NCBI GenBank assembly: GCA_964017185.1
Contig: OZ024869.1
Span: forward strand, 61,530,761-61,594,760
Source of the DNA: Rugalucina vietnamica
Taxonomy: Eukaryota > Mollusca > Bivalvia > Lucinida > Lucinidae
Reading direction: 5' to 3'
Length of the DNA: 64,000 nucleotides
The notes beneath the pieces were generated by a model. That model had not been told where the DNA came from. It was given only the letters and a program-made list of their open reading frames with translations, and searched no databases. Below, piece by piece: positions 4,936-45,910 of this stretch (positions within the stretch are counted from its first letter, which is position 1; each line of letters begins with the position of its first letter). Position numbers and translations under genes: made by a program.

Positions 4936-6159
4936 ATTTACGTGATACTTACTCATAATGTGAAAGAAATATGATCATATACCCATTCAGTGTTGAGATA
5001 TAAAGCAAAATCACTGAACCATGGAATTAGGTCATAGTGACCTATAAGTATGTTTGCGTTAAAGGTCTGGTCAAACTCATTCATAATCAGAAAGAAGTAT
5101 GAAAAAATACCAACTGAGTGTCGAGATAAAAGGCAAAATCACTGAACCATGAAATTAGGTCACAGTGACCCAGGAATACTTTACGGTCAAAGGTCTTGTC
5201 ATACTCATACATATCGTGAAAGAAGTTCAAAGATCGTGTCATACTCAAACATATCGTGAAAGAAGTATGTTCATATACCAATTGAGTGCCGAGATATAAA
5301 GGAAAATCACTGAACCATGAAATTAGGTCATACTGACCTAGGACTACTTTAGGGTCAAAGGTCTTGTCATACGCAAACATAGTGTGAAAGAAGTTTGTTC
5401 ATAAACTACTTGAGTGCCGAGATATAAGGCAAAGTCACTGAACCTTGAAATTAAGTCACAGTGACCTATAAGTATACTGGGGTCAAAGGTCTGGTCATAC
5501 TCACTCATAATCTGAAAAAAGTATGAAAATATACTAATTGAGTGTCAAGATATCAGGCAAAATCACTGAACCGTGAAATTAGGTCACAGTGACCTAGGAC
5601 TTCTTCAGGGTCAAAGGTCTTGTCATATGCAAACATACTTTGAAAGAAGTTTGTTCATAAACCATTTGAGTACCGAGATATAAGGCAAAATCACTAAACC
5701 ATGAAATTAGGTCACAGTGACCTATAAGTATATTGGGGTCAAAGGTCTGGTCATACTCACTCATAATCTGAAAAAAATATGAAAATATACTAATTGAGTA
5801 TCAAGATATAAGGCAAAATCACTGAACCGTGCAATTAGGTCACAGTTACCTAGACCTACTTCAGGGTCAAAGGTCTTGTCATACGCAAACATACTTTGAA
5901 AGAAGTTTGTTCATAAACCATTTAAGTACCGAGATATAAGGCAAAATCACTGAACCATGAAATTAGGTCACAGTGACCTATAAGTATAATGGGGTCAAAG
6001 GTCTGGTCATACTCACTAATAATCTCAAAAAAAAGTATGAAAATATACTAACTGAGTGTCAAGATATAAGGCAAAATAACTGAACCGTGAAATAAGGTCA
6101 CAGTGACCTATAAGTATATTGGGGTCAAAGGCCTGGTCGTACTCACTCATAATCTGAAA

Positions 6160-8150
6160 CCAGAGGACCAATGGTCCTGTAAACGCTCACCTGAGTCTGC
6201 TGCATATACCAGTAAACATGTTTGAATATTATGGTATTTAACCCCAGTGCAGGGGCAGATGAAGCCCTTGGGTCGTTTTCTTTTTTCAGAATAATCAATA
6301 TTCTGTCCATTTGCCAATTTCTTGCGGGCTTTTCCCTTCATATGACATTTTAACAGTTTTTCCGATCCAAATGCATGGGCAACCCATGTTGACCTTGCCA
6401 TAAACTTGGTCAAGGTCATCACAGGGTCATGATTTATATATACATTGTAGTACTATAGCCATGGATGCTTCACGCCAAGTTTCATTGAAGTCAATCTATT
6501 GGTTTCAGAGAAGAAGATATTTGAAGGGTTCTTACCATATATGGGCATGGCGGCCATCTTGGTCATGTGACCTAGATTATTAATATATACATTGGTTCCC
6601 CCATCCTATAGATGCTTCACATAAAATTTGGCTTCAATTGGCCAAGTGGTTTTAGAGGAGAAGATGTTTGAATATTATGGTAATATACATGTATAATGCC
6701 CCGGGGTGTGGGCATATGAGTCCTTAGGTCCATTTTTTTTTTCAGAATCATTAATATTTAGTCCTACTACCCATTGCCTGCAAGATTTTCACCTCAAATG
6801 ACTTTTTAAAAGTTTTCCCCATTCCAATGCATTGGCGACCTATGTTGACCTTGTCCTAAAATAGGTCAAGGTCACCACAGGGTCATGATTTATATATACA
6901 TTGTAGTACTTCAGCCATTGGTGCTTCATGCCAAGTTTCTTTGAAATCGGTCCACCAGATTCGGAGAAGAAGATTTTTGAAAGGTTTTTACCTTATATGG
7001 GCATGGCAGCCATCTTGGTCATGTAAACTAGATAATTTATATATACATTAATTCCCCCATTCCATAGATGCTTCACATAAAATTTGGCTTTGATTCGCCA
7101 AGCGGTTTCAGAGGAGAAGATGTTTGAATATTATGGTAATATACATGTATATTGTCCCGGGGTGGGGGCAGATGAGCCCCTGGGGTCCATTTTTTTCAGA
7201 ATCATTAATATTCAGTCCTACTGCCCATTTCCTGCAAGACTTTCACTTTAAATGACATTTTAAAAGTTTTCCCAATTCAAATGCATTGGCGACCTATGTT
7301 GACCTTGCCGTAAAAAAAAGGTCAAGGTCATCACAGGGTCATGATTTATATATACATTGTAGCACTTGAGCCATCGATACTTCATGCCAAGTTTCCTTGA
7401 AATCGATCCACCGGTTCTGGAGAAGAAGATTTTTGAAGGGTTTTTACCATATATGGGCATTGCGGCCATCTTGGTCATGTGACCTGGATTATTTATATAC
7501 ACATTGATTACCCCTTCCTATTGATGCTTCACATAAAATTTGGCTTTGATTGGCCAACCGGTTTCAGAGGAGATGATGTTTGAATATTATGGTAATATAC
7601 ATGTATATTGCCCCAGGGTGGGGGCATATGAGCCCCTGGGGTCCAATTTTTTTCAGAATCATTAATATTCTCTCCTACTGCCCATTTCCTGCAAGACTTT
7701 CACTTTAAATGACATTTTAAAAGTTTTCCCCATTAAAATGCATTGGCGACCTATGTTGACCTTGCTGTAAAATAGGTCAAGGTCATCACAGGGTCATGAT
7801 TTATATATACATTGTAGTGCTTGAGCCATCAATGCTTCATGCCAAGTTTTGTTGAAATCAGTCCACCGGTTCTGGAGAAGAAGATTTTTGAAGGGTTTTT
7901 ACCATATATGGGCATGGCGGCCATCTTGGTCATGTGACCTGGATTTCTTATATACACATTGGTTCCCCCTTCCTATAGATGCTTCATATAAAATTTGGCT
8001 TTGGTTGGCCAAGCGGTTTCAGAGAAGAAGATCTTTGAAATTGTGGACGGACGACGGACGGAAGACGGACGGACGACGGACGGACGGACGCCGGATCATG
8101 GCCATCCTATAAGCTCACCTTGTGAGCCTAACGGCTCAGGTGGGTGAGCT
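6160..8150 (+). mobile_element. PL1 element, complete, nested in PL3
   Basis: Complete copy: left CCAGAGGACC hairpin, CGCTCACCTGAG, four core units of about 455 bp, GGACGGAC microsatellite (8045-8095), and right hairpin to GAGCT at 8150 with a small GGTG duplication. Flanking PL3 text (CATAATCTGAAA / AAAAAGTAAG) joins back to the uninterrupted consensus if the terminal AA belongs to the element, so there is no visible target duplication. It is closely related to the copy at 45911-47897. Confidence 0.85.
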
Positions 8151-8834
8151 AAAAAGTAAGAAAATATACTGATTGAGTGTCAAGATATAAGGCAAAATCA
8201 CTGAACCATGGAAAGTAGGTCAACTGACCCTTACCGTCATGACACACAAGTCAGTGTCACAAAGTCAAAAGATGAATGACCAACCATCTTCCTAAGAAAT
8301 AAAAAGAAATAAAAAGAAAAAAAAAATTCGGGGAGTTCTAGATTTTGACCTCTAGCCCCGCACCCCTGACTCCGACCCAGAGGTCCAATGTCATGGAACC
8401 TAAAGTGTATGAAGTATGAATGCTTTATGATAAGTTGTTGTCAAGATATGGACCCCTTGTAAAAGTTACACAGCAGTACATCTATTTTCTACAGTGTTCT
8501 AGTTTTTAACCTCCAGCCCCACCCCCCAGGCATGGACCCAGAGATCCGATGCCATGAAATGAAACTCAACCCTACAGGGTACCTATGGTCTGAGTATGAA
8601 AGCCCTCTGATTAAAAGTTTTCAAGATATAGACTTCTAGAATACTATATCACAGAAAAGCCATTATTATTAATGGTGTTCTAGATTTTAACCTCTAGCCC
8701 CACCCCCTGGCATGGACCCAGGGATCTGATGCCATGGAATGAAAGCTGACCCTACAGGGTGTCAATGGCCTAAGTAGCAATGCTTTCTGATGAGTGGTTG
8801 TCAAGATATGGACTTCTAGAAAACTTTAACACAA

Positions 8835-10361
8835 CCAGAGGACCAATGGTCCTGTAAACGCTCACCTGAGATCAGCTGCATATACCAATAAACATGTTTG
8901 AATATTATGGTATTTAACTCCAGTGCAGGGGCAGATAAGCCCTTGGGCCATTTTCTTTTTTCAGAATCTTCAATATTCTGTCCATTTGCCAATTTCCTGT
9001 TGGCTTTTTCCTTCAAATGACATTTTAACAGTTTTCCCAATTCAGATGCACAGGCAACCCATGATGACCTTGCCATAAACTTGGTCAAGGTCATCACAGG
9101 GTCATGATTTATATATACATTGGAGTACTTTAGCCATCGATGCCTCACGCCAAGTTTCCTTGAAATCAGTCTATTGGTTTCAGAGAAGATGATTTTTGAT
9201 GGGTTTTTACCATATATGGGCATGGCGGCCATCTTGGTCAGGTGACCTAGATTATTTATATACACATTGATTCCCCCATTCTATAGATGCTTCACTTAAA
9301 ATTTGGCTTTGTTTGGCCAAGCGGTTTCAGAGGAGAAGACGTTTGAATATTATGGAAGTATATTGCCCCGGGGTGGGGGCACATGAGCCCCTGGGGTCCA
9401 ATTTTTTTCAGAATCATTAATATCCAGTCCTACTGCCCATTTCCTGCAAGACTTTCACTTTAAATGACATTTTAAAAGTTTTCCCCATTCAAATGCATTG
9501 GTGACCTATGTTGACCTTCCCGTAAAATAGGTCAAGGTCATCACAGGGTCATGATTTATATACACATTGTAGTGCTTGAGCCATCAATGCTTCGTGCCAA
9601 GTTTCGTTGAAATCGGTCAACCGGTTCTGGAGAAGAAGATTTTTGAACGGTTTTTACCATATATGGGCATGGCGGCCATCTTGGTCATGTGACCTGGATT
9701 TTTTATATACATATTTGTTACCCCTTCCTATTGATGCTTCACATAAAATTTCGCTTTGATTGGCCAAGCGGTTTCAGAGGAGAAGATGTTTGAATATTAT
9801 GGAGATATACATGTATATTGCCCCGGGGTGGGGGCGGATGAGCCCCTGGTGCCCAATTTTTTTCAGAATCATTAATATTCAGTCCTACTGCTCATTTTCT
9901 GCAAGATTTTTCCTTTAAATGACAATTTAACAATTTTTCCCATTCAAATGCATTCGCGACCTATGTTGACCTTGCCGTAAAATAGGTCAAGGTCATCATA
10001 GGGTCATGATTTATATACACATTGTAGTGCTTGAGCCATTAATGCTTCATGCCAAGTTTGGTTGAAATCGGTCCAGTGGTTCCGGAGAAGAAGATTTTTG
10101 AAGGGTTTTTACCATATATGGGCATGGCGGCCATCTTGGTCATGTGACCTGGATTATTTATATATACATTGGTTCCCCCTTCCCATAGATGCTTCATGTA
10201 AAATTTGGCTTTGATTGGCCAAGCGGTTTCAGAGGAGAAGATCTTTGAAAATGGTGGACGACGGACGACGGACGGACGGACGACGGACGGACGGACGGAC
10301 GGACGACGGAGCATGGGTATACTATAAGCTCACCTTGTGAGCCTGACGGCTCAGGTGAGCT
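8835..10361 (+). mobile_element. PL1 element, complete, nested in PL3
   Basis: Complete copy with three core units. It is nearly identical to 18051-19789, including odd variants such as AGATAAGCCC and GATGCACAGGC, so both derive from a recent common source. The microsatellite is at 10252-10312 and the right end is ...CTCAGGTGAGCT. Its insertion point is the A run of PL3 text AACTTTAACACAA. Confidence 0.85.
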
Positions 10362-10624
10362 AAAAATTGCCATTTTTGAAGGTGTTCTAGATTTTAACCT
10401 CCAGCCCCTCCCCCTGGCCTGGACCCAGGGGCCCGATGCCATGGAATAAAAGCTAACTCTACAGGGTGTCTATGGTCCAAGTATGAATGCTTTCTGATGA
10501 GTGGTTGTCAAGATATGGACTTCTAGAAAACTTTAACGCAAGTGTGACACGCACGCGCACAGGAACGGGAACGTGGACGACCGGGGTGACTGCAATAGCT
10601 CTATGCACTTCATGTAGTCAAGCT

Positions 10625-13347: not shown

Positions 13348-13850
13348 ATATCTCAGCAACCAAAAGCTGTAGAGATCGAGCTGAAATTGGTATCAAATGA
13401 TTGCTACGATCATATTTGATACAAAATTGATACAAAAAGTACCTAAAAGAACTTTATTCCCATCAGAATACCACTGACACTGATGTTTATACAGGCAATT
13501 GTAAAAGGGCATGAAAATAAGCATTTTTCGCACTGAAGTGACCTTTGACCTCAGTTTGCATTACTTTGTTGTAACAATTGTAACTGATTACACCATACAA
13601 ATGTATTAGATGTAATTTGTTTTTTGTTTTGTTTTTTTTTTTAAATGAAACTATTTCATAAGATACTGCTATAATGTTGAAATATCTTAAATTTTGCACT
13701 TAGTTGACCTTTGACCTATTTTTGGGACTCTGGGGCATTTTCAGACTTGGCATCCACCCTAGCGTGTATTGTTACACATTAAGGTACACATTGGGCATGG
13801 ATGCCAAAATGTACTCAAAAATGCCAACAGAAAAATATACGGGGGCTTGG
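13348..13850. other. Array remnant and short duplicated block with DR1 motifs
   Basis: The first 60 bp resume the 190-bp array. From about 13430 to 13740, two diverged blocks each contain TGACCTTTGACCT (13539-13551 and 13705-13717), the reverse complement of an ideal AGGTCA direct repeat with one-base spacer. No open frame. Confidence 0.5.
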
Positions 13851-15739
13851 GAGGCCAACTAAATGGGCAAAGATCATCCCGTATTTATATAAACTTTGTA
13901 GAGCTCCATACCCTGATGCTTCATGCCAATTTTCAAAATCATAGGCCTTCCGGTTCTGGAGAAGAAGAGGTTTTTGCTATTTATAGCCATGGCGGCCATC
14001 TTGGTCATGTGACCTGGATCATTTATATAAATTTTTGTTCCCCCTTCCTAAGGGTGCTCCACGTGAAGTTTGGCTTTGATTGGCCAAGCTGTTTCAGAGA
14101 AGAAGAATTTTGAATATTACCATTATATACATGTATTTAGCCCAGGGGCAGGGGAAGCAACCCCTAGCCATATTTTTCATAAACATAAATATTCCGCCCA
14201 TTTGCTCATTCCCAGCAAGTTTTCTGCAATAAAATGACATTTTACTAAATTTCCCCATTCAAATGCATTGGTGACCTAAGTTGACCTTGCTGTAAAATAA
14301 GTCAAGGTCATCCTAGGGTCATGATTTATATAAACTTTGTAGAGCTCCTCTCCCTGATGCTTCATGCAAAGTTTCAAAATCATAGTCCTTCTGATTCTGG
14401 AGAAGAAGATTTTTAAAGGTTTTTGCTATTTATAGCCATGGCGAACATCTTGGTCATGTGACCTTGACCATTGATATAAACTTTCATTCCCCCTTCCTAA
14501 GGATGCTCCACATGAAGTTTGGCTTTGATTGGCCAAGCTGTTTCAGAGAAGAAGAATTTTGAATATTACCATTATATTCATGTATTTAGCCCTGGGGCAG
14601 GGGCAGCAGCCCCTAGAGGCCATTTTTAATAAACATAAATATTCTGCCCATTTGCTCATTCCCAGCAAGTTTTCTACAATAAAATGACATTTTGCCACTT
14701 TTCCCCATTCAAATGCATTGGCGACCTAAGTTGACGTCGCTGTAAAATAAGTCAAGGTCATCCAGTGTCATGATTTATATAAATTTTGTAGAGCTCCTCA
14801 CCCTGATGCTTCATGCAAAGATTCAAAATCATAGGCCTTCTGGTTCTGGAGAAGAAGATTTTTAAAGGTTTTTGCTATTTATTTATAGCCATGGCGGCCA
14901 TCTTGGTCATGTGACCTGGACCATTGATATTAACTTTCATTCCCCCTTCCTATGGATGCTCCACATGAAGTTTGGCTTTGATTGACTAAGCCGTTTCAGA
15001 GAAAAAGATCTTTGAATATTACGGTAGTATACATGTATATTGCCCCGGGGTTGGGGCAGACCTGCCCCTGGGTTTTTTTTCAGAATCATAAATCTTCAGT
15101 CCATTTGCCCATTTGCATAAAGTTTTTCCCCTCAAATGACTTTTGACAATATTCCCCATTCAAATGCATGGACGACCTATGTTGACCTTGCCGTAAAATA
15201 CGTCAAGGTCATCCCAGGGTCATGATTTATATAAACTTTGTGGAGCTCCTCTCCCTAATGCTCCATGCGAAGTTTCAAAATCATAGGCCTTCTGGTTCTG
15301 GAGAAGAAGATTTTTTAAAGGTTTTTGCTATTTATAGCCATGGCGGCCATCTTGGTCATGTGACCTAGACCATTGATATAAACTTTCATTCCCCCTTCCT
15401 AAGGATGCTCCACATGAAGTTTGGCTTTGATTGGCCAAGCTGTTTCAGAGAAGAAGAATTTTGAATATTACCATTATATACATGTATATGGGGCAGGGGC
15501 AGCAACCCCTAGAGGCCATTTTTAACATACAGTCAAGGGACATAATTATTCGCCAGTCTAATACAAAATGGCTACTTGGGTAGTTTACCTTGTTACTTTA
15601 ACTGAGTCTAGCTATTTATAGAAATGGCCAATCAATACCTAATTAGCATATTTGTGTACACAAAACATATTTTGATGACATCACACAAAGTTTTTTGGTA
15701 GTCTGCTTCAAATGTAAACATTGTTGACAGAAAAAGAAG

Positions 15740-15874
15740 ATGGGTAAAAAAAGTAAAGAATTAGGGGGTGATGTTAGGCAAATGATCATAGAAAGCTACA
15801 GAAGCAATAAAAATATATCAGAATTGTCAAGAATATTTGGGATACCTAGGAGAACAGTTGGATCAATGATAAAA
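15740..15874 (+). pseudogene. Tc1-like transposase, N-terminal piece
   Basis: 45 codons from ATG: DVRQMIIESYRSNKNISELS then RIFGIPRRTVGSMIK, the first paired-like helix-turn-helix DNA-binding domain of Tc1 transposases (the [ILV]-x-[EK]-[IL]-[AS]-x-x-[FL]-G-I-[PS] pattern). The frame is broken by PL1 at 15875. The continuation at 17685 restores K-K...GSVENRSGRGRKR when the insert and its terminal AA are removed. Confidence 0.9.
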
Positions 15875-17682
15875 CCAGAGGACCAATGGTCCTGTAAACG
15901 CTCACCTGAGTCTGCTGCATATACCAATAAACATGTTTGAATATTATGGTATTTAACCCCAGTGCAGGGGCAGATGAAGCCCTTGGGCCGTTTTCTTTTT
16001 TCAGACTAATCAATATTCTGTCCATGGATGCTTCATGCCAAGTTTCATTAAAATCAATCTATTGGTTTCAGAGAAGAAGATATTTGAAGGGTTTTTACCA
16101 TATATGGGCATGGTGGCCATCTTGGTCATGTGACTTAGATTATTAACATACACATTGGTTCCCCCATCCTATAGATGCTCCACATAAAATTTGGCTTCAA
16201 TTGGCCAAGTGGTTTTAGAGGAGTGGATGTTTGAATATTATGGTAATATACATGTATATTGCCCCGGGGTGTGGACATATGAGTCCATTTTTTTTCAGAA
16301 TCATTAATATTTAGTCCTACTACCCATTTCCTGCAAGATTTTCACCTCAAATGACTTTTTAAAAGTTTTCCACATTCCAATGCATTGGCGACCTTAGAAT
16401 GTTGACCTTGTCGTAAAATAGGTCAAGGTCACCACAGGGTCATGATTTATATATACATTGTTGTACTTCAGCCATTGGTGCTTCATACCAAGTTTCTTTG
16501 AAATCGGTCCTCAAAATTCGGAGAAGAAGATTTTTGAAGGGTTTTTACCATATATGGGCATGGCAGCCATCTTGGTTATGTGAACTAGATAATTTATATA
16601 TACATTAATTCCCCCATTCCATAGATGTTTCACATACAATTTGGCTTTGATTCGCCAAGCGGTTTCAGAGGAGAAGATGTTTGAATATTATGGTAATATA
16701 CATGTATATTGCCCCGGGGTGGGGGCAGATGAGCCCCTGGGGTCCAATTTTTTCAGAATCATTAATATTCAGTCCTACTGCCCATTTCCTGCAAGACTTT
16801 CACTTTAAATGACATTTTAAAAGTTTTCCCTATTCAAATGCATTGGCGACCTATGTTGCCCTTGCCGTGAAATAAGTCAAGGTCATCACAGGGTCATGAT
16901 TTATATATACATTGTAGTGCTTGAGCCATCGGTGCTTCATGCCAAGTTTCTTTGAAATCGATCCACCTGTTCTGGAGAAGAAGATTTTTGAAGGGTTTTT
17001 AACATATATGGGCATGGTGACCTGGATTATTTATATACACATTGATTACCCCTTCCTATTGATGCTTCACATAAAATTTGGCTTTGATTGGCCAAGCGGT
17101 TTCAGAGGAGATGATGTTTGAATATTATGGTAATATACATGTATATTGCCCGGGGGTGGGGGCATATGAGCCCCTGGGGTCCAATTTTTTTCAGAATCAT
17201 TAATATTCAGTCCTACTGCTCATTTTCTGCAAGATTTTTCCTTTAAATTACAATTTAACAATTTTTCCCATTCAAATGCAAAGGCGACCTATGTTGACCT
17301 TGCCGTAAAATAGGTCAAGGTCACCGCAAGGTCATGATTTATATACACATTGTAGTACTTGAGTCATCGATGCTTCATGCCAAATTTGGTTGAAATCGGT
17401 CCAGTGGTTCCGGAGAAGAAGATTTTTGAAGGGTTTTTACCATATATGGGCATGGCGGCCATCTTGGTCATGTGACCTGGATTATTTATATACACATTGG
17501 TTCCCCCTTCCCATAGATGCTTCATGTAAAATTTGGCTTTGATTGGCCAAGCTGTTTCAGAGAAGAAGATCTTTGAAAATGGTGGACGACGGACGGACGG
17601 ACGGACGACGGACGGACGGACGGACGACGGAGCATGGGTATACTATAAGCTCACCTTGTGAGCCTGACGGCTCAGGTGAGCT
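15875..17682 (+). mobile_element. PL1 element inside Tc1 transposase (first insertion)
   Basis: Complete ends (CCAGAGGACC ... GGTGAGCT) and a GGACGGAC/GGACGAC microsatellite at 17584-17632. It has an internal deletion after the first half unit (text jumps from CAATATTCTGTCCATGG to GATGCTTCATG at about 16025). It targets an A run (ATAAAA). The host frame is restored if the two A's after GAGCT are counted as element sequence. Confidence 0.9.
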
Positions 17683-17684
17683 AA

Positions 17685-18050
17685 AAATGTCATGATTTTG
17701 GCTCTGTAGAAAACAGGAGTGGGAGGGGTAGGAAGAGACTATTCAGTGACAGGGACACTACTCAGCTTTCTCGGGTTGTAAAACAAAACAGGAGAAGACC
17801 ACTTCAGGATATAACTACCATCATTAATGAGGGCAAGGACCATACTTTCTGTACAAAAACTGTTCAGAGAAAATTAAATGAACTAGGCTACAAGCGGCGG
17901 GTGGCAAAGAAGCAGGTTGTTTTAAGAGAAGTGAACAAGAAAAAGCGGGTTGCCTGGGCCAAGGAGAGAAAAAACTGGTCAGTTGATGCACAATGTAGAA
18001 AGTGGATATTTAGTGATGAAAGCCAAATAGTGATAGGAAAGAATAACAAA
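17685..18050 (+). pseudogene. Tc1-like transposase, central piece
   Basis: 122 codons exactly in frame with the flanking pieces. It contains GSVENRSGRGRKR, the GRPR-type AT-hook-like linker that ends the first half of the DNA-binding region. The second HTH region follows (TKTVQRKLNELGYKRRVAKK), then WAKERKNWSVD and KWIFSDES, which carries the first catalytic aspartate. PL1 interrupts again at 18051, inside GKNNK. Confidence 0.9.
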
Positions 18051-19789
18051 CCAGAGGACCAATGGTCCTGTAAACGCTCACCTGAGATCAGCTGCATATA
18101 CCAATAAACATGTTTGAATATTGTGGTATTTAACTCCAGTGCAGGGGCAGATAAGCCCTTGGGCCATTTTCTTTTTTCAGAATCTTCAATATTCTGTCCA
18201 TTTACCAATTTCCTGTTGGCTTTTTCCTTCAAATGACATTTTAACAGTTTTCCCAATTCAGATGCACAGGCAACCCATGTTGACCTTGCCATAAACTTGG
18301 TCAAGGTCATCACAGGGTCATGATTTATATATACATTGGAGTACTTTAGCCATCAATGCCTCACGCCAAGTTTCCTTGAAATCAGTCTATTGGTTTCAGA
18401 GAAGATGATTTTTGAAGAGTTTTTACCATATATGGGCATGGCGGCCATCTTGGTCATGTGACCTAGATTATTTATATACATATTGATTCCCCCATTCTAT
18501 AGATGCTTCACTTAAAATTTGGCTTTGTTTGGCCATGCGGTTTCAGAGGAGAAGACGTTTGAATATTATGGAAATATACATGTATATTGCCCCGGGGTGG
18601 GGGCACATGAGCCCCTGGGGTCCAATTTTTTTCAGAATCATTAATATCCAGTCCTACTGCCCATTTCCTGCAAGACTTTTACTTTAAATGACATTTTAAA
18701 AGTTTTCCCCATTCAAATGCATTGGTGACCTATGTTGACCTTCCCGTAAAATAGGTCAAGGTCATCACAGGGTCATGATTTATATACACATTGTAGTGCT
18801 TGAGCCATTGATGCTTCGTGCCAAGTTTCGTTTTTTCAGAATCATTAATATCCAGTCCTACTGCCCATTTCCTGCAAGACTTTTACTTTAAATGACATTT
18901 TAAAAGTTTTCCCCATTCAAATGCATTGGTGACCTATGTTGACCTTCCCGTAAAATAGGTCAAGGTCATCACAGGGTCATGATTTATATACACATTGTAG
19001 TGCTTGAGCCATTGATGCTTCGTGCCAAGTTTCGTTGAAATCGGTCAACCGGTTCTGGAGAAGAAGATTTTTGAACGGTTTTTACCATATATGGGCATGG
19101 CGGCCATCTTGGTCATGTGACCTGGATTTTTTATATACATATTTGTTACCCCTTCCTATTGATGCTTCACATAAAATTTCGCTTTGATTGGCCAAGCGGT
19201 TTCAGAGGAGAAGATGTTTGAATATTATGGAGATATACATGTATATTGCCCCGGGGTGGGGGCGGATGAGCCCCTGGTGCCCAATTTTTTTCAGAATCAT
19301 TAATATTCAGTCCTACTGCTCATTTTCTGCAAGATTTTTCCTTTAAATGACAATTTAACAATTTTTCCCATTCAAATGCATTCGCGACCTATGTTGACCT
19401 TGCCGTAAAATAGGTCAAGGTCATCATAGGGTCATGATTTATATATACATTGTAGTGCTTGAGCCATTAATGCTTCATGCCAAGTTTGGTTGAAATCGGT
19501 CCAGTGGTTCCGGAGAAGAAGATTTTTGAAGGGTTTTTACCATATATGGGCATGGCGGCCATCTTGGTCATGTGACCTGGATTATTTATATATACATTGG
19601 TTCCCCCTTCCCATAGATGCTTCATGTAAAATTTGGCTTTGATTGGCCAAGCGGTTTCAGAGGAGAAGATCTTTGAAAATGGTGGACGACGGACGGACGG
19701 ACGACGGACGGACGACGGACGGACGGACGGACGACGGAGCATGGGTATACTATAAGCTCACCTTGTGAGCCTGACGGCTCAGGTGAGCT
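18051..19789 (+). mobile_element. PL1 element inside Tc1 transposase (second insertion)
   Basis: Complete copy, sister of 8835-10361. It differs by a 204-bp internal direct duplication (about 18629-18832 repeated from 18833), whose junction is the abrupt AGTTTCG-TTTTTTCAG at about 18830. The microsatellite is at 19683-19735. The target A run is AACAAA. Confidence 0.9.
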
Positions 19790-19791
19790 AA

Positions 19792-21343: not shown

Positions 21344-22664
<1,321 letters not shown>

Positions 22665-22666: not shown

Positions 22667-24414
22667 GAGCCGCCACATGGGAAAACCGACAATCTGCGTA
22701 GGCAATAAGAGCTGTCGCAGGACAGCGTAGCTCGCCTGACTTGTACTTTGTCACTAAACTTATCAAAATCTATGACCCATGACCTTGACCTCAAGGTGGC
22801 TCAGGTGGGTTGTGATGGTACAGCATAAAATTTCAGACCAATATCCACAAACATGCAAAGTTTTAACTTGATCCATCAACATAGAGATATATAGATCTTT
22901 AACCCAAAACTTTAACCAAAAATTTCTAAGGCCATGACCTTGACCTCAAGTTGACCCAGGGTGGGTCATAATGGTACAGCATAAAACTTCAGACCAATAT
23001 CTACCAACACGCGAAGTATCAACTTGATCCATCTACATGTTCAAGAGACTTCTAAAAACTTTAACCGAAAACATTAACAAAAAAATTCTAAGTCTGTGAC
23101 CTTGACCTCAAGGTCACTCAGGGTGGGTCATGATGGTACTGCATAAAACTTCAGACCAATATCTACCAACATGCAAAGTATCGACTTGATCCATCAACAC
23201 ATTCAAGAGATATAGACTTCTAAAAACTTTAATGAAAAAGTCACTAGAGCATGAAATATAGGTCAAGGTCACTAGATCAATGTGGGTGCAGAGTCGGGAC
23301 ATCAAGGAGAAGCCATATGCAAGGTTTGATGGTTGTAGGCTTTATAGTTGATGAGATATTAAGGGTTGGCTTAAAAAATGACAAAGTCACTGGAGCATGA
23401 AATATAGGTCAAGGTCAGTAGATCAATGTGGGTGCCGAGTCGGGACATCGAGGAGAAGCCATATGCAAGGTTTGATGGTTGTAGGCTTTATAGTTGATGA
23501 GATATTAAGGGTTGGTGTCAAAAATGACAAAGTCACTAGAGCACGAAATATAGGTCAAGGTCACTAGGTGAATGTGGGTGCTGAGTCAGGACATCAAGGA
23601 GAAGTCATATGCAAGGTTTGATGGTTGTAGGCTTTATAGTTGATGAGATATTAAGAGTTGGCTTCAAAAATGACAAAGTCCCTAGAGCACGAAATATAGG
23701 TCAAGGTCACTAGATCAACGTAAGTGCAAAGTCGGGACATCGAGGAGAAGCCATATCCAAGGTTTGATGGTTGTAGGCTTTATAGTTGATGAGATATTTA
23801 GGGTTGGCTTAAAAAATGACAAAGTCACTGGAGCATGAAATATAGGTCAAGGTCAGTAGGTCAATGTGGGTGCCGAGTCGGGACATCGAGGAGAAGCCTT
23901 ATGTAAGGTTTGACAGTTCTAGGCTTTACAGTTGATGAGAAACTAACACAGCATCTGAGCATTGTACAAAGGTGTCCTAGATATTGACCTCTAGCCCCAC
24001 CCCCAGGCATGACCCCACAAGTTCCTTCACACTAAATCACAGAGGACCCTCATATGTAGCAATGTTCCAAATATGAATGATTTCTGGTCAGTGACTATCA
24101 AGATATAACAATTTTAAAAACTTTAACCGAAAGTGTGACGCGGACGCGGACGTAAACGTACACGTAAACGTAAACGGAGATGACCGGGGTTACTACAATA
24201 GCTCTATGCACTTCGTGCAGGCGAGCTAAAAATAAAGGCGCAGATCAGCTGCAAAGCTGATCAGCGCCTTTGAATTTGATACTCGGATAGTACAGTTCCT
24301 CTTCTACTTAAATCAGAAATTTCAAGATTCTAGCTTTTTTCTGTGACTGTACAGGTCGGTTTATGTCGGACCTGGTCAGAAACCATGTTGTTGGTTTTTC
24401 CCACGAGGCGGCTC
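22667..24414. mobile_element. GAGCC-ended MITE interrupted by PL2
   Basis: Left end GAGCCGCCACATGGGAAAAC, right end ...CCACGAGGCGGCTC, flanked by AAAT on both sides (22663-22666, 24415-24418). Without the PL2 insert (22706-24227) it is about 226 bp, like copies at 24508, 28784 and 38942. The interior holds a CAGATCAGCTGCAAAGCTGATCAGCGC hairpin region, written here only to locate it near 24240-24265. Confidence 0.8.
22706..24227 (+). mobile_element. PL2 element, complete
   Basis: Left hairpin GCTGTC-GCAG-GACAGC, then AGCTCGCCTG, which is complementary to CAGGCGAGCT at the right end. There are two successive tandem blocks: about 155-bp units with TGACCTTGACCTCAAGG (22780-23220), and five units of about 150 bp with GGGACATCGAGGAGAAGCC (23220-23940). 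The CTAGCCCCACCCCC module shared with PL3/PL5 follows, then a GTAAAC/GGACGC microsatellite (24135-24178), and hairpin TGCAC-TTC-GTGCA. Confidence 0.85.
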
Positions 24415-26502: not shown

Positions 26503-28650
26503 AAGTAGCCCAGGGGCAACGATCGCTCACCTGAGAGTCAACAAGTACAGTCACTGGACAAAGTAATTGGGGTTTTTACCATATATGGGTATGGTGGCCA
26601 TCTTGGTCATGTGACCTTGAAACCCTACTTACATCAGCAGAAGAGCTCTTGTCTGGATTGTGTATCCTCTTTTCTGCCATTTTGGTTCACGTGAAAAAAT
26701 CGTCTAACAAGGTCAGGGTCCTATAATGACCCCGGGGTGGGGCCATATTTGACCCCAGGGGCAAGATTGGCAGGATTTATGTACAGCTCAATATGACAAT
26801 GTTGTATATCAAATATACAAGCTTTGTGTCATGCTGTTGCAGAGAAGATTTTTTCATATATTTCCATTATAAGTCTATGGTAGATAATGACATGCCTGGG
26901 GCATGGCCTGTATGGACCACAGGGGCACCGTTGGCAGCATTTATAAAGGAGAGGATTATACATTGGTCAACACAACATATGAAAGCTCTGGCCCATATGG
27001 TTTCGGAGAAGATTTTTTTATGTTTTTCCCTTGACGCCCCCGGGGCGGGGCCCGTATGGACACCAGGGGCACGGTTGGCAGGATTTATAAAGAGGACCAC
27101 TTTACATTGCTAAAAACAAAATATGAAAGCTTTGGGCCTTGTGGTTTTGGAGAAGAAGATTTTTTAAAGTTTTTCCCGTGACGCCCCCGGGGCGGGGCCC
27201 GTATGGACCCCAGGGGCACGGTTGGCAGGATTTATAAAGAGGAACACTATACATTGCTACAAACAAAATATGAAAGCTCTGGGCCTTGTGGTTTTGGAGA
27301 AGAAGATTTTTTTATGTTTTTCCCATGACGCCCCAGGGGCGGGGCCCATATAGACCCCAGGGGCACGGTTGGCAGGATTTATAAAGAGGACCATTATACA
27401 TTGCTACTGACAAAATATGAAAGCTCTGGGCCTTGTGGTTTCGGAGAAGAAGATTTTTTTATGTTTTTCCCAATGTAAGTCTATGGGAGCTAATGACCCC
27501 CGGGGCCGGGCCATTTTTGACCCCAGGGGCATGATTGGCAGGATTTATATATAGGACCACTACACATTGCTACATACAAAATATGAAAGCTTTGGGCCTT
27601 GTGGTTTTGGAGAAGAAGATTTTTTTATGTTTTTCCTAATGACCCCCGGGGCGGGGCCCGTATGGACCCCAGGGGCACAGTAGGCAGGATTTATAAAGAG
27701 GACCATTATACATTGCTACACACAAAATATGAAAGCTCTGGGCCTTATGATTTCGGAGAAGATTTTTTAAAGTTTTTCCCATGACGCCCCCGGGGCGGGG
27801 CCCGTATGGACCCCAGGGGCACAGTTGGCAGGATTTATAAAGAGGACCATTATATATTGCTACAAACAAAATATGAAAGCTCTGAGCCTTGTGGTTTTGG
27901 AGAAGAAGATTTTTTTATGTTTTACCCATGACCCCCCCCCCCCCCCCCCCCAGGGCGGGGCCTGTATGAACCCCAGGGGCACGGTTGGCAGGATTTATAA
28001 AGAGGACCACTATACATTGCTACTGACAAAATATGAAAGCTCTGGGCCTTGTGGTTTCGGAGAAGAAGATTTTTTATCTTTTTCCCTTGTAAGACTATGG
28101 GAGCTAATGACCCCCGGGGCGGGGCCATTTTTGACCCCAGGAGCATGATTGGCAGGATTTATAAAACAAACCACTACACATTGCTACATACAAAATATGA
28201 AGGCTCTGGGCCATGTGGTTTCGGAGAAGAAGATTTTTTTTATGTTTTGCCCCATCACGCCCCCGGGGCGGGGCCTGTATGGACCCCAGGGGCACGGTTG
28301 GCAGGATTTATAAAGAGGACCACTATACATTGCTACACACAAAATATGAAAGGTCTGGGACTTGTGGTTTCGGAGAAGAAGATTTTTTTATGTTTTTCCC
28401 ATTGTAAGTCTATGGGAGCTATCTGTTGCCATGGAAACCAGAGTTCCAATCCGACCTGGCCCAAAACCTAATGCAACCATTCCCCCTCCTCAATGATGCT
28501 TTAGATAAAATTTGATTAAGATCGGCCATGTTGTCTTAGAGATATTTGAGTTTGAAAATGTGAACGGACGGACGCACGCACGCACGGACGGACGCCGGCT
28601 CGACTACTGTACTATAAGCTCACCTTGTGAGCCTTCGGCTCAGGTGAGCT
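26503..28650 (+). mobile_element. PL1-ended element with a different GC-rich core (PL1b)
   Basis: The left end TAGCCCAGGGGCAACGATCG runs into CTCACCTGAGAGTC. The right end is the standard PL1 hairpin at 28614-28650 after an ACGGACGC microsatellite (28563-28595). The core is about eleven GC-rich units of about 152 bp (CCCCGGGGCGGGGCC, GGCAGGATTTATAAAGAGG, GGAGAAGAAGATTTTTT), unlike ordinary PL1. A C17 homopolymer lies at about 27932-27951. The overlapping open frames on both strands are only repeat translation. Confidence 0.8.
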
Positions 28651-31849: not shown

Positions 31850-32899
31850 AAAAAGTGCCTTGAGAGGCACATATACCCCCGGCTGGTAGCCACCAAGCCC
31901 CCTTCCCTACACCCTACCTAAGCAACCCGGCACATGCTCACCCCTGACATATCTATTTTAGAGTGGTATACAGAGCTGACGTGTATACCCAATCTAGGAC
32001 ATAAGCGCGGACATTTTGGGTCAGGTCCTCAGTCCAAGATTGAAATGAAAGTAGAATGTCATTCTTAAAAAAAAAAAAAAAAAAAACTAGATCTTGACCT
32101 CAGGTCCCACCCCCACCCCATGCATGGACCAGTAGGCCTAGCCCTTATGTGGTACCTATGTTGTGTTGTAAGCATGAACACTTTCTAATACATGGTTGTC
32201 AAGATATAGACACACAGAATATTAATATTGGTAACTACTGTATTTTATGTGTCCTAGATTTTGACCTTGAGCCCCACCCCTAGAGTTTGGTGCCATGGAA
32301 TTTAATTCAACCCTAAAGGGTATCTATGATCCAAACAGGAATACATTCCTTAAGTATTTGTTAAGATATGAACTTAGAGATGAAAAAACACTATGTAAAT
32401 AGCACATTTTCAAGGTGACCTAGATTTTGACCTCTAGCCCCACCCCCGGGCATGGTCCGAAGGTCTGAACTGACAGAAACAAAACAAACCCTATAGGGTA
32501 CCTATGGTTAAAATATGAATGGTTTCTGATCATTGGTTCATGAGATATACACCACCAGTGAAACTTAAACCAAAACTTTGACCCAAAGTAAAGGTGACCT
32601 AGATTTTGACCTCTAGCCCCACCCCCGGGCATGGACCCAGGGTCCAAACTCACAGAAACAAAGCAAACCCTATAGGGTACCTATGGTTAAAATATGAATG
32701 GTTTCTGATTATTAGTTAATGAGATATACACCACCAGAGAAACTTTAACAAAAACTTTGACATAAATTCCACGAACGTTCCGGAATAGCGAACGAACTAA
32801 CGAACGAACGAACCAACCAACGAACAAACCAACGAACATACGAACGGACGAACGGAAAAGCGAAAACTATATACCCGTCGGCATAAATGCTGGGGGTAT
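31850..32899 (+). mobile_element. PL5 element, complete
   Basis: Left hairpin GTGCCT-TGAG-AGGCAC and subterminal ATACCCCCGGC pairing with GCTGGGGGTAT at the right end. The core is about four units of 175 bp built on CTAGATTTTGACCTCTAG. A CGAA/CCAA microsatellite (32771-32855) and a terminal hairpin ATACCC...CGGCAT-AA-ATGCTG...GGGTAT follow. It ends directly against the PL3 left end. Confidence 0.75.
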
Positions 32900-33852
32900 A
32901 ATAAGAGCTGTCGCAGGACAGCGCATTCGACTGCTTCTGACCTTTGTCAAACATAACGACAAACCCGACCTGTAACCCAAAGCATTCTGCTCATACTTCT
33001 TTTTGCCTTGATGCAATAAGGCAAAATCATTGAACCATGAAAGTTAACTACAACTACCTAAGACTTAAAGGCCTCACTCATATTGTGAAAGAAGTGTGTT
33101 CATATACCAACTGAGTGCCAAGATACAAGGCAAATCACTAAACCATGAAATAAGGTCACACTGACTTATAAGTATGTTAGGGTCAAAGGTCTAGTCATAC
33201 TTACTCATAATGTGAAAGAAATATGATCATATACCCATTGAGTGTTGAGATATAAAGCAAAATCAGTGAACCATGAGAAAAGGTCATTTTGACCTATAAG
33301 TATGTTTGGGTTAAAGGTCTGGTCATACACATTCATAATCAGAAAGAAGTATAAAAAAATACCAACTGAGTGTCAAGATATAAGGAAAAATCACTGACCC
33401 ATGAAATTAGGTCACAGTGACCCAGGAATACTTTATGGTCAAAGGTCTTGTCATACACAAACATATCGTAAAAAAAGTATGTTCATATACCAATTGAGTG
33501 CCGATATATAAGACAAAATCACTGAACCGTGAAATTAGGTAATAATGACCTATAAGTATTTTAGGGTCAAAAGTCTTTTCTTAAGCAAATATAGTGTGAA
33601 AGAAGTTTGTTCATAAACCAATTAAGTGCCGAGATATATGGCAAAATCACTGAACCATGCAATTAGGTCATGGTGACCTATAAGTAAGTTTGGGTTAAAG
33701 GTCTGGTCATACTTAATCATAATCTGAAAGAAGTAAGAAAAATACCAACTGAGTGTCAAGATACAAGGCAAAATAAATGAACTATGAAATTAGGTCACAG
33801 TGACCTAGGAATACTTCAGGGTCAAAAGTTTTGTCATATGCAAACATATCGT

Positions 33853-35847
33853 GACTAGAAAATGTGTTTATGAAACACTATGCCCCCAACTGGTAAGTCA
33901 CTTTCAAGATGTAAAAATGTCCAAAAAATGACTAAGTTCAAATTGTAAAAAAAGTGACAAAAATTAATCTGAGGAGTATATCCCAACCACATGCATATCT
34001 TCAAAGCATGGTCACAATGTCTGCAAAGTTTCAAAAGTATCGGTATTAAATTGTAGGAGGAGTTGCCCACACAAGGTACCCTCTATGCATTCACTAAAAT
34101 GCCCGAAAAAATGACTAAGTTCAAATTGTGAAAAAAATGACAAAAAATAATCCAAGGATTATATCCAAACCACATGCATATCTTCAGACCATGCCCATAA
34201 CACATGTAAAGTTTTAAATGAATTGGCATGAAACTGTAGGAGGAGTTGCGCACACAAGGTACCCATTGCCCATTCACTTTCATTGTCAAAATGCCCGAAA
34301 AATGGCTAAGTTCAAATTGCAATAAGAGCTGTCGCAGGACAGCGTAGCTCGCCTGACTTGTGCTATGCCACTACATCTGTTAAAATCTATGACCCATGAC
34401 CTTGACCTCAAGGTCACTCAGGTGGGTCATGATGGTACAACATAAAACTTCAGACCAATGCAAAGTATCAACTTGATCAATTTACATGTTCAAGAGATAT
34501 AGACTTATAAAAACATTAACCAAAACTTAAATACAAAACTTCCAAGTCCGTGACCCTGACCTCAAGGTCATCCAGGTGAGTTGTGATGTACAGCATAAAA
34601 CCTGAGACCAATATCGATCAACCTGCAAGTTTCAACTTTATCCATCAACATGTTCAAGAGATTTAGACTTTAACCAAAACATTTAACAGAAAATTTCTAA
34701 GTCTGTGACCTTGACCTCAAGGTCACCCAGGGTAGGTCATGATGGTACTGCATAAAACTTCAGACCAATATCTACCAACATGCAAAGTATCAACTCGATC
34801 AATCAACATGGTCAAGAGATATAGACTTACAAAAACTTAAATCAAAAACTTGAACACAAAATTTCTAAGTCTGTGACCTTGACCTCAAGGTCACCGAGAG
34901 TGGGTCATGATGGTACTGCACAAAACTTCAGACCAATATCTAGCAACATACAAAGTATCAACTCAATCCATCAATATGGTCAAGAGATATACTAGACTTA
35001 CAAAAACTTTAACCAAAAAAAAAACCACAAAATTTCTAAGTCCGTGACCTTGACCTCAAGGTCACCCAGGGTGGGTCATGATGGTACTGGGTAAAACTTC
35101 AGACCAATATCTAGCAACATGCAAAGTATCAAAACAATCCATCTATATGGTCAAGAGATATTGACTTACAAAAACTTTAACCAAAAACTTAAACACAAAA
35201 TTTCTAAGTCCGTGACCTTGACCTCAAGGTCACTCAGGGTGGGTCATGATGGTACTGCGTAAAACTTCAGACCAATATCTATCAACATGCAAAGTATAAA
35301 CTTGATCCATCAACATGGTCAAGAGATATAGACTTCTAAAAAACTTTAACCGAAAGTGTGACGCGGACGTAAACGTAAACGTAAACGCGGACGACCGAGG
35401 TGACTACAATAGCTCTATGCACTTCGTGCAGGCGAGCTAAAAAAGTGACAAAAATTAATCTGAGGATTATATCCAAACCACATGCATATCTTCAAAGCAT
35501 GGTCAAAACATCTGTAAAGTTTCAAGAGAATCGGAATAAAACTGTAGGAGGAATTGCGCACACAAGGTACCCACTATCTATTCAATTTATCAAGAATTAA
35601 GAAGGGAAATAACTCTCACAGAATGGGCCCCTAGCCCCTTGAACTTACCTAAAAGAAAAAATATGGGTCCTCTTAATTTTCATGTACAAACTACATACCA
35701 AGTTTCAAGATCCTAGCTCTAACGGTTCCTGACCAAGTGCTAAGCGTTACTCACGCATCACAGACTGACTGCACTGGACTGGACTGGACTGGATGGACTG
35801 ACCCAAACCAATATGCCCCCTCAACTTCTTCCGAAGTTGGGGGCATA
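33853..35847 (+). mobile_element. PL4 element carrying a nested PL2
   Basis: Left hairpin GTGTTT-ATG-AAACAC, then ATGCCCCCAACT, complementary to AGTTGGGGGCAT at the right end (35833-35845). Core units are about 200 bp (GTTCAAATTG, CACATGCATATCTTC, GGAGTTGC), then a GGACT microsatellite (35767-35791). PL2 interrupts at 34321-35438. The same family recurs at 57311-58187. Confidence 0.8.
34321..35438 (+). mobile_element. PL2 element, complete, nested in PL4
   Basis: Ends as in 22706-24227. The core is about six 165-bp units, each with the palindrome arms GTGACCTTGA and TCAAGGTCAC around CC (e.g. 34705-34726). The second block of the other copy is absent. The microsatellite is GTAAAC (35365-35388). 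Confidence 0.85.
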
Positions 35848-37187
35848 AAAACAGTATGTTCATATACCAGTTGAGTGCCGAGATATAAGGCAAAACCACT
35901 GAACCGTGAAATTAGGTCATAATGACCTAGGACTACTTTAGGGTCAAAGGTCTTGTTATACGCAAACAAAGTGTGAAAGAAATTTGTTCATAAACCAATT
36001 GAGTGCCGAGATATAAGGCAAAATCACTGAACTGTGAAATTAGGTCACAGTGACCTATCAGTATATTGGGGTCAAAGATCTGGTCATACTCATAATCTGA
36101 AAGAAGTATGAAAATATACTAATTGAGTGTCGAGATATAAGGCAAAATCACTGAACTGTGAAATTAGGTCATAGTGACCTATTTAGAAGTATATTGGGGT
36201 CAAAGGCCTGGTCATACTCACTAATAATCAAAAGTACGCAAACATACTAATTGAGTGTCAAGATATAAGGCAAAAGCACTGAACCATGGAAAGTAGGTCA
36301 ACAGACCCAGGTCACCTTATTGTCATGACACACAAGTCAGTGTCACAAAGTTAAAAGATGAATGACCAACCATCGTCCTCAGTTGTTACTATTAAAAATA
36401 AAAAGAAAAAGAAATTCAGAGAGTTCTAGAATTGACCTCTAGCCCCACCCCCTGACTCCAACCCAGAGGTTCGATGTCATGGAACCTAAAGTGTATGAAG
36501 TATGAATGCTTTATGATAAGTTGTTGACAAGATATGGACTCTTTGTAAAAGTAACACAGCAGTACATCCATTTTTATAGTGTTCTAGTTTTTAACCTGTA
36601 GCCCCATTGCCTAGGCATGGAAGCAGGGATCCGATGCCATGAAATGAAACTCAACCCTATGGGGTACCTATGGTCCAATTATGAAAGCCCTCTGATAAAA
36701 GGTTTTCAAGATATAGACTTCTAGAATACTATACCACAGACAAGCCATTATTATTAATGGTGTTCTAGATTTTAACCTCTAGATCCACCCCCTGACATGG
36801 ACCCAGGGATCCGATGCCATGGAATGAAAGCCGACCCTACAGGGTGTCAATGGCCCAAGTGTCAATGCTTTCTGATGAGTGTTTGTCAAGATATGGATTT
36901 CTAGAAAACTTTAACACAAGAATAGCCATTTCTGAAGGTGTTCTAAATTTTTAACCTCCAGCCCCACCCCCTGGCCTGGACCCAGGGGCCTGATGCCATG
37001 GAATGAAAGCTAACCCTACAGGGTATCTATGGTCTCCAAGTATGAATGCTTTCTGATGAGTGGTTGTCAAGATATGGACTTCTAGAAAACTTTAACGCAA
37101 GTGTGAAGCGCACCCGCATGGGAACAGGAACGTGGACAACCGGGGTGACTGCAATAGCTCTATGCACTTTGTGCAGTCAAGCTAAAA

Positions 37188-43810: not shown

Positions 43811-43890
43811 GGCAACGCTGGGATTCGAACCTGCAACATTCGGGTTTCTAGGCAGGAGCCGAACGATCACAGCCATGGAGACTTGTAATG
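43811..43890 (-). mobile_element. tRNA-like SINE head (minus strand)
   Basis: On the minus strand: TGGCTGTGATCG A-box-like, CCTAGAAACCCGAATGTTGC, and B box GGTTCGAATCC (43831-43821). A T run (A's at 43794-43808 on plus) follows as a Pol III terminator. Acceptor pairing is poor, so it is a SINE or tRNA pseudogene. Confidence 0.6.
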
Positions 43891-44152
43891 GAATAGTGCT
43901 ATTATAATACACTATAAAGAAATTACAAGGAAGATGATTTACCTTAAATAATAAATGGACTAAACCTTAAAAGTACATTTACGGCTCACTGCGTGAAATT
44001 GAACTATTAAGTGTTTTAGGGTCAAAGGTCTGGTCATACTTACTCATAATGTGAAAGAAATATGACCATATGCCCACTGATTGTTGAGATATAAAGCAAA
44101 ATCACTGAACCATGAAATTAGGTCATAGTGATGTTTGACTTAAAGGTCTGGT

Positions 44153-45110
44153 CCAATTTTTTTCAGAATCATTAATATTCATTCCTACTGCCCATTTCCT
44201 GCAAGACTTTCACTTTAAATGACATTTTAAAAGTTTTCCCCATTCAAATGCATTGGCGACCTATGTTGACCTTGCTGTAAAATAGGTCAAGGTCATCACA
44301 GGGTCATGATTTATATATACATTGTAGTGCTTTTAGCCATCGATGCTTCATGCCAAGTTTCATTGAAATTGGTCTACCGGTTCCGGAGAAGAAGATTTTT
44401 GAAGGGTTTTTACCATATATGGGCATGGCGGCCATCTTGGTCATGTGACCTGGATTATTTATATATACATTGGTTACCCCTTCCTATTGATGCTTTGCAT
44501 AAAATTTAGCTTTGATTGGTCAAGCGGTTTCAGAGGAGAAGAGGTTTGAAAATTATGAAGATATACATGTATAATGCCCCAGGGTGGGGGCACATGAGCC
44601 CCTGGGGTCCAATTTTTTTCAGAATCATTAATATTCAGTCCTACTGCCCATTTCCTGCAAGACTTTCACTTTAAATGACATTCTAAAAGTTTTCCCCATT
44701 CAAATGCATTGGCGACCTATGTTGACCTTGCTGTAAAATAGGTCAAGGTCATCACAGGGTCATAATTTATATACACATTGTAGTACTTGAGCCATTGATG
44801 CTTCATGCCAAGTTTCGTTGAAATCGGTCCATCGGTTCTGGAGAAGAAGATTTTTGAAGGGTTTTTACCATATATGGGCATGGCGGCCATCTTGGTCATG
44901 TGACCTGGATTTCTTATATACACATTGGTTCCCCTTCCTATAGATGCTTCATATAAAATTTGGCTTTGATTGGCCAAGTGGTTTCAGAGGAGAAGATCTT
45001 TGAAATTGTGGACGGATGGACGACAGACGGACAACCAACACCGGACGGACGACGCCGGATCATGGCCATCCTATAAGCTCACCTTGTGAGCCTAACGGCT
45101 CAGGTGAGCT
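44153..45110 (+). mobile_element. PL1 element, left-truncated, in PL3 core
   Basis: Two core units, a microsatellite (45010-45058) and a standard right hairpin ending at 45110. It joins PL3 text on both sides. The left end is missing, starting inside a unit at CCAATTTTTTTCAG. Confidence 0.8.
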
Positions 45111-45910
45111 AATAATTCAGGGTCAAAGATCTTGTCATATGCAAACATAGTGAGAAAGAAGTATGTAGTGCCAAGATATAAGGCAAAATCACTGAACCGT
45201 GAAATTAGGTCACAGTGACCTGTAAGTATACAGGGGTCAAAAGTCTGGTCGTACCCACTCATAATCTGAAAGAAGTATGAAAATATACCAATTGAGTGTC
45301 AAGATATAAGGCAAAATCATTGAACCATGAAATTAGGTCACAGTGACCTATAAGTATAAGTATATTGGGGTCAAAGGTCTGGTCATACTCACTTATAATC
45401 TGAAAGAAGTACGAAAATATACTAATTCAGTGTCAAGATAAGGCAAAATCACTGGACCATAGAAAGTAGGTCAACACAATCTTACCGTCATGACACACAA
45501 GTCAGTGTCACAAAGTTGAAAGATGAATGACCAGCCATCTTCCTAAGATGTTTCTGTTTAGAAATAAAAAGAAAAAATATTTCAGCCAGTTCTAGATTTT
45601 GACATCTAGCCCCACCCCTCTGACTCCAACCCAGAGGTCCAATGTCATGGAACCTATAGTGTATGAAGTATGAATGTGATATGATAAGTTGTTGTCAAGA
45701 TATGGACTCTTTGTAAATGTTACACAGCAGTACATCCGTTTTTTACAGCGTTCAAGTTTTTTACTTCTAGCCACAACCCCTAGGCATGGACCCAGGGATT
45801 GGATGCCATGAAATAAAACTCAACCCTACAGGGTACCTATGGTCCGAGTATGAAAGCCCTCTTGAGAATTTCTTTTTAAGATATAGACTTCTAGAATACT
45901 ATATCACAGA

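Follow-up and report, generated by a model that had tools for sequence, protein, structure and literature searches.

Nuclear-receptor half-sites in the core repeats of Helentron-type elements of the bivalve Rugalucina vietnamica: a possible inherited and partly constrained module

Why should several different tandem repeats of one bivalve genome carry the same nuclear-receptor half-site, AGGTCA? The question is raised by a stretch of 64,000 nucleotides from Rugalucina vietnamica (assembly GCA_964017185.1, contig OZ024869.1, positions 61,530,761 to 61,594,760, forward strand), hereafter called the window. A preliminary description of it reported three core repeats, PL1, PL2 and PL3, and proposed that these unrelated families carry half-site arrangements independently. 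We found that the arrays belong to Helentron-type non-autonomous elements (HINE) and that the motif is enriched and partly conserved, but the independent occurrence in unrelated families did not stand. The account that we tentatively prefer is that the half-sites form an inherited, partly constrained module in HINE cores, for which a host orphan receptor is a plausible reader.

Enrichment of half-sites in the core repeats

The motif strings described previously were found by exact string match where they had been placed. The inverted repeat with a 3-bp spacer (IR3) of PL3, AGGTCACAGTGACCT, was exact at eight sites in the window (5581, 5709, 5965, 6095, 33792, 36042, 45207 and 45335), which include all six sites listed earlier and two further ones, 6095 and 33792. 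The sequence GGGTCAAAGGTCT, which resembles a direct repeat of the DR1 type, was exact at 10 sites, and the PL2 palindrome at 34705-34726 consists of GTGACCTTGA at 34705 and TCAAGGTCAC at 34717. On the forward strand of the window, TTGACCTTG, GGTCAAGGTCA and TCAAGGTCA were counted 29, 30 and 44 times, respectively.

Repeat-family models were built from the window, and 11 of them (PL1, PL2, PL3, D, E, F, G, H, I, J and K) were compared; a twelfth model, L, was a mixture of PL1 and was left out of the counts. The number of AGGTCA per consensus unit was compared with its average over 2000 dinucleotide-shuffled versions. The consensus of PL1 contained 4 (shuffle mean 0.18), that of PL2 3 (0.13), PL3 2 (0.13), D 3 (0.16) and E 1 (0.12; p 0.12), and those of F, G, H, I, J and K contained none. 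Summed over the 11 families, 13 were found versus 1.28 in the shuffles, with a maximum of 6 among 2000 shuffled sets; the half-site density is far above the shuffled level, where a density no higher than that level would have spoken against the proposal. AGGTCA was the first-ranked 6-mer within the repeats (210 in 31,143 positions), and outside them it occurred 33 times in 31,457 positions (rank index 192 of 2065). When words were ranked by the number of the 11 consensuses containing them, AGGTCA (5 of 11) was not the top 6-mer. The G model included PL1 copies; in the pure G array at 26752-28559, neither AGGTCA nor TGACCT was present. AGGTCA, on either strand, was found in 8 of 28 E hits, partial hits counted.

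The half-site pairs have geometries accepted for nuclear receptors, and these geometries are DR0 in PL1A, PL2 and D, IR3 together with a DR1-like pair in PL3, and DR5 in PL1A. The direct repeat AGGTCAAGGTCA (DR0) is common to PL1A, PL2 and D. Names of geometries other than DR1-DR5 follow general usage. The names DR1-DR5 are those of PMC1785376.

Three further observations concern these motifs. In the PL1 unit, for example at 6549-6572 (GGCGGCCATCTTGGTCATGTGACC), a stretch that resembles a YY1 site directly adjoins inverted half-sites. The sequence CCATCTTGGTCA is one of the best-conserved 12-mers in PL1. Two TGACCTTTGACCT (DR1) sites, 166 bp apart, lie at 13539-13717 outside the modelled arrays, perhaps as a decayed further core family.

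Helentron-type elements carrying the arrays

The elements with PL1 arrays, designated T1, are Helentron-type non-autonomous elements of the HINE/pearl layout, as described in PMC7492417 and PMC4067079. Five T1 elements with both ends were found, three of them within PL3 or E repeats. On the minus strand, their order is AGCTCACCTGAGC with a complementary inverted repeat, a GTCC microsatellite, the PL1 array, CTCAGGTGAGC and the palindrome AGGACCATTGGTCCT. The subterminal inverted repeat (subTIR) of the first end with its complementary inverted repeat, AGCTCACCTGAGCN{5,20}GTGAGCT, gave 8 exact matches in the window and none in 100 shuffles, and one copy of it folds at z -5.91. At the opposite end, AGGACCAATGGTCCT with CTCACCTGAG occurred at 7 places, including 2 degenerate ones; the palindrome of this end forms a stem, and its folding was no better than that of shuffles (z -1.10, 32/200). 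When the flanks of the element at 18051..19791 were joined at 18050/19792, a single frame with 1 stop was obtained, versus 17-20 stops with four other joins, and the gene split by this element is Tc1-like (Pfam HTH_Tnp_Tc3_2 and DDE_3). This insertion, the one tested, lies in a T-rich site and shows no duplication of the target. All five paired T1 elements are flanked by runs of A on the plus strand, and therefore their exact ends are ambiguous. The region 15732-20319 is apparently one Tc1-like transposase gene split by two T1 elements, at 15876-17682 (by eye) and 18051-19791 (by the flank join).

A second type, T2, also belongs to HINE by its subTIRs and palindrome, although the pairing of the T2 subTIRs was judged by eye. 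The pattern of the right terminus, ATAGCTCTATGCACTTCGTGCAG..GAGCT, occurs at 5 places and the left palindrome at 4. Two stretches stand between T2 ends, one of PL2, D and E at about 22.7-24.2 kb and one with PL2 as its only array at about 34.3-35.4 kb. PL3 is next to two left ends (32904 and 42768) and E next to three right ends (10588, 31803 and 37147); no PL3 element with both ends intact was found in the window. Given these positions, PL2, D, E and PL3 appear to be alternative cores within a single group of related elements. PL2-type and PL3-type ends, however, differ by one base in their subTIR letters, and by the 11-bp rule given in PMC4067079 T2 may therefore count as two families. A different terminus, ATGCCCCCTCAACTTCTTCCGAAGTTGGGGGCAT, lies at 35813-35846 after a GACTG microsatellite and adjoins a PL3 array, which makes a third element type.

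Relationships among the core families

The families had been thought to look unrelated apart from the half-sites. This was not borne out, since they share termini, since PL3 matches D and PL1A matches PL2 after masking of the half-sites, and since a second segment recurs in 8 of 12 families. In the masked pairwise test, 66 pairs were scored at each setting against 1000 shuffles (p values uncorrected). Under the stricter gap costs, PL3-D gave p 0.004, with an alignment covering the stretch CAAARTCACTRRASCATGAAAT.TAGGTCA, and PL1A-PL2 gave p 0.008, with the match in the second module. The pairs PL1A-PL1B, PL1A-G, PL1B-G and PL1A-I reached p 0.001, and further matches were I-J (0.002), G-F (0.004), D-F (0.009) and H-K (0.004). 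No significant masked match was obtained for PL1A-PL3 (0.30), PL1A-D (0.27), PL2-PL3 (0.58) or PL2-D (0.82). A run in which gaps were penalised too leniently, superseded by the stricter one, gave p 0.017 for masked PL1A-PL3 and for unmasked PL2-PL3, and neither PL3-D nor PL1A-PL2 at p <=0.02 with masking; the two settings thus disagree on PL3-D, PL1A-PL2 and PL1A-PL3.

The second shared segment, AAGTTTSA..GGTT..GAGATAT (module B), occurs both in core repeats that have half-sites and in others that lack them. It was scored with a profile that omitted the tested family or its group and whose training segments were chosen by eye. Module B scored above all 60 shuffles in PL1A, G, PL2, D, PL3, F, I and J, the real score being the better of two strands and the null being scored on one; 2 of 60 shuffles reached PL1B and 1 of 60 reached E. 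It was not found by the leave-one-out profile in H and K. Among the families, module B is more widespread than the half-sites. In the consensuses of PL1A, PL1B, PL2, D, PL3 and E, some half-site stands 76-98 bp from module B. The agreement of this register gave p 0.029 for PL1A, PL2, D and PL3, 0.0077 when E was added, and 0.0015 when PL1B was included as well, although PL1B and PL1A are not independent.

The core families therefore appear to be linked, but the links are partial. A single ancestral unit is favoured by the common termini and the masked PL3-D and PL1A-PL2 matches, and not by PL1A-PL3 and PL2-PL3, so that the comparison of sequences supports shared ancestry in parts.

Conservation of the half-sites

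The conservation tests rest on copies within the 64-kb window. The mean divergence of the motif columns was compared with that of the rest, and the fraction of circular shifts giving a value as low was determined; E and G were left out, the consensus of that alignment having no half-site. Divergence at the motif was 0.038 versus 0.101 in PL1 (0.011 of shifts as low) and 0.043 versus 0.137 in PL3 (0.017). The same trend, not significant, was seen in PL2 (0.051 versus 0.079; 0.217) and D (0.000 versus 0.051; 0.164). Removal of CG, TG and CA positions left the order unchanged in all four. With array consensuses as units, the values were 0.035 versus 0.119 for PL1 (9 arrays; shifts 0.042), 0.000 versus 0.092 for PL3 (4 arrays; 0.033) and 0.042 versus 0.053 for PL2 (2 arrays; 0.567). 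In 22 PL3 rows, 8 of 258 half-site cells deviated, as did 15 of 62 cells of the IR3 spacer and 304 of 2552 cells over all columns, these cells not being independent. The slower divergence of the motif that the preliminary description had named as a check was thus seen in PL1 (1.1% of shifts) and PL3 (1.7%), but did not reach significance in PL2 (21.7%) and D (16.4%).

These data bear on a simpler account, in which the half-sites would be left over from a single ancestral core monomer, alike through homogenisation and recent amplification, and bound by nothing. Common termini, masked homology and module B support it, as do the non-significant constraint in PL2 and D and the absence of AGGTCA from the G array and from 20 of the 28 E hits, with partial hits counted. 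However, under homogenisation alone the half-sites should not fare better than the 3-bp spacer between them (8/258 versus 15/62), nor better than the other columns in PL1 and PL3. The half-site arrangements vary among the families, and masked PL1A-PL3, PL2-PL3, PL1A-D and PL2-D are not significant, which also argues against ancestry alone. We regard it as possible, though rather doubtful.

Folding of the core repeats

A palindrome or hairpin could instead be the selected feature, serving rolling-circle replication or array recombination, with the half-site letters incidental. Inverted half-sites are present in PL1, PL2 and PL3, and as single strands one PL2 stretch (z -2.25), one PL3 stretch (z -2.96) and one of two complete PL1 stretches (z -2.70) folded better than shuffles; stretches missing an arm or a part (PL1, z -0.16; PL2, z -0.67) were not counted. 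The variable IR3 spacer is compatible with a loop, and a conserved palindrome is described near repeat junctions of DTC84 in PMC5139131. The second complete PL1 stretch, however, was barely better than shuffles (z -0.93), and D did not fold better than shuffles (z 1.04). In addition, the direct repeat AGGTCAAGGTCA is common to D, PL1A and PL2, and the letters themselves recur, for which a hairpin would have no need. We consider this explanation a live but unlikely rival.

A possible reader of the half-sites

The elements' own machinery, a Helentron Rep or an accessory DNA-binding protein, might read the site in place of a host receptor. The motif occurs in T1 and T2 cores and is missing from the F, H, I, J and K consensuses, which would fit such a reader, and motifs recognised by transposase-related proteins are raised as a possibility in PMC7492417. 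Against it, the G array lies beside a T1-type end without the motif, and no Rep or helicase match was found in the 10 open reading frames scanned of 44 listed, although an autonomous partner may lie outside the window. This explanation appears very unlikely to us.

In the account that we prefer, PL1, PL2, PL3, D and E would be satellite-like core monomers of HINE of the bivalve pearl type, which descend from, or have swapped parts of, one modular core in which the half-sites (module A) mostly stand 76-98 bp before module B. A sequence-specific DNA-binding protein would use the half-sites, and its most plausible identity would be an orphan nuclear receptor of the host, one able to use monomer or DR0 sites. 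Two observations make such a receptor our best guess, namely the recurrence of the same letters in varying arrangements and the DR0 repeat common to PL1A, PL2 and D; it would plausibly bind the half-sites. Candidate classes are NR5A/FTZ-F1, ERR, NR6A/HR4 and ROR/E75. Acting in the germ line or early embryo, the receptor would make chromatin at the element accessible and so favour its mobilisation, and each array would be a run of several receptor sites travelling with the element. A precedent for an early-embryonic receptor is NR5A2, which binds TCAAGG(C/T)CA and SINE (short interspersed nuclear element) B1 in mouse two-cell embryos (PMC11102866).

Several points weigh against this account. 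The G array lies beside a T1-type subTIR without any AGGTCA, and with only 8 of 28 E hits carrying the word, the motif seems not to be needed for mobility. The spacing of the half-sites differs by family (DR0, IR3, DR1-like and DR5), which fits no single receptor, and the inverted half-sites of PL1, PL2 and PL3 can also form hairpins. The motif constraint was not significant in PL2, by copies or by array consensuses, or in D, and the homogenisation of array copies means that the tests overstate independence. When the register is compared among PL1A, PL2 and PL3 without further families, its agreement is weak (p 0.115); in the E variant the half-site to module B distance is 111-139, and inclusion of this variant in the first form of the test gave p 0.053. 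Finally, H and K matched at p 0.004 though both are without module B, and that level is therefore not strong among 66 pairs.

Features of the window

The elements and arrays are collected in Table 1. For the T1-type subTIR beside the G array, the other end was not found in the window.

Table 1. Elements, arrays and termini located in the window
Feature	Position	Strand	Basis or remarks
T1 HINE element, PL1 core	6161..8150	-	nested in PL3 repeats
T1 HINE element, PL1 core	8836..10361	-	nested in E repeats
T1 HINE element, PL1 core	15876..17682	-	first insertion into Tc1-like gene, by eye
T1 HINE element, PL1 core	18051..19791	-	inside Tc1-like transposase gene
T1 HINE element, PL1 core	45912..47897	-	nested in E repeats
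PL3 array, 128-bp units, IR3 AGGTCAnnnTGACCT and DR1-like GGGTCAAAGGTC	4961..6145	+	string match, repeat model
PL3 array	33086..33842	+	repeat model
PL3 array	35848..36319	+	repeat model
PL3 array	45154..45481	+	repeat model
PL2 array, T2 element core	22765..23220	+	repeat model, termini
PL2 array (GTGACCTTGACCTCAAGGTCAC), T2 element core	34382..35336	+	H repeats on both sides
D array, 146-bp units, DR0 AGGTCAAGGTCA	23232..23946	+	related to PL3
E repeats	23917..24136	+	after PL2 and D within one T2 element
E array variant retaining half-sites (GGTGACCTAGATTTTGACCT)	32170..32768	+	
G array, related to PL1	26752..28650	-	beside T1-type subTIR at 28617-28650
T2 right terminus	24191..24227	-	others start at 10588, 31803, 35402, 37147
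T2 left palindrome AGAGCTGTCGCAGGACAGCG	22708..22727	-	others start at 32904, 34325, 42768

The K array at 60017-61930 has units of ~163 bp that contain GTTTCGAAAC palindromes; its consensus lacks half-sites, and it has no module B. A WD40 exon at 22212-22526 on the minus strand, whose best match among solved structures is coronin-6, marks a host gene amid this element-rich stretch. At 62872-63839, a reverse-transcriptase fragment (RVT_1) is followed by a second open reading frame without a Pfam match, probably from a non-long-terminal-repeat element.

Scans of the window gave no Rfam match and no tRNA. Relatives were sought in viral contigs, where the subTIR pattern, ATGAAATTAGGTCACAGTGACCTA and GGTCAAGGTCATCNCAGGGTCATGA each gave 0 loci. 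The 15 viral loci with TGACCTTGACCTNAAGGTCA, each with one DR0, a GC content of 0.51-0.59 and similar flanks, were set aside as one unrelated phage gene family. In genome contigs, the subTIR pattern matched 4 bacterial records, which were judged from their titles alone to be chance. A match to TGACCTTGACCT in an oyster paper was an entry of a primer table.

Meaning and comparison with known systems

A nuclear-receptor half-site is the most repeated word in several of the cores and among the best-kept in two, and a second shared module lies alongside it. Why otherwise different monomers share short segments thereby becomes a direct question of binding, and if the preferred account is true, the spread of the elements would be tied to receptor-driven regulation. 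In the articles consulted, we met no account of what keeps parts of HINE monomers alike. A wider generalisation, which we think rather improbable, is that the conserved segments of bivalve HINE and satellites are a two-part cis-module, a cluster of orphan-receptor sites (A) and a second box (B), kept by a germ-line or early-embryo receptor that opens the array; the elements would thereby spread very many mobile clusters of receptor sites through bivalve genomes.

The closest known systems are bivalve HINE/pearl elements (Cg_HINE, pearl CvA and CvE, DTC84 and MgE), which according to PMC7492417 likewise have a subTIR with a complementary inverted repeat, a GTCC-type microsatellite, core repeats, a palindrome at the far end, a T-rich insertion site and, in one element, two consecutive arrays. 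One T2 element described here differs in having three arrays (PL2, D and E). The units also differ, PL1 being a compound of ~450 bp and PL3 128 bp, whereas those of HINE in PMC7492417 are usually 140-180 bp, and the abstract, the Results and the first part of the Discussion of that article do not mention the half-site motif. The oyster genome contains HINE core repeats in large numbers, some of them related to the classical satellite DNA of the oyster (PMC7492417). The BIV160/Cg170 satellites have differing monomers with two conserved segments (PMC5139131, PMC7492417), a description that recalls modules A and B. Mobile repeats that spread nuclear-receptor sites are represented by the DR2 retinoic-acid response elements of Alu (PMC1785376) and the NR5A2 sites of SINE B1 (PMC11102866). 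Those are SINEs with demonstrated receptor binding, whereas the repeats of R. vietnamica are tandem cores of Helentron-type elements, known from their sequence.

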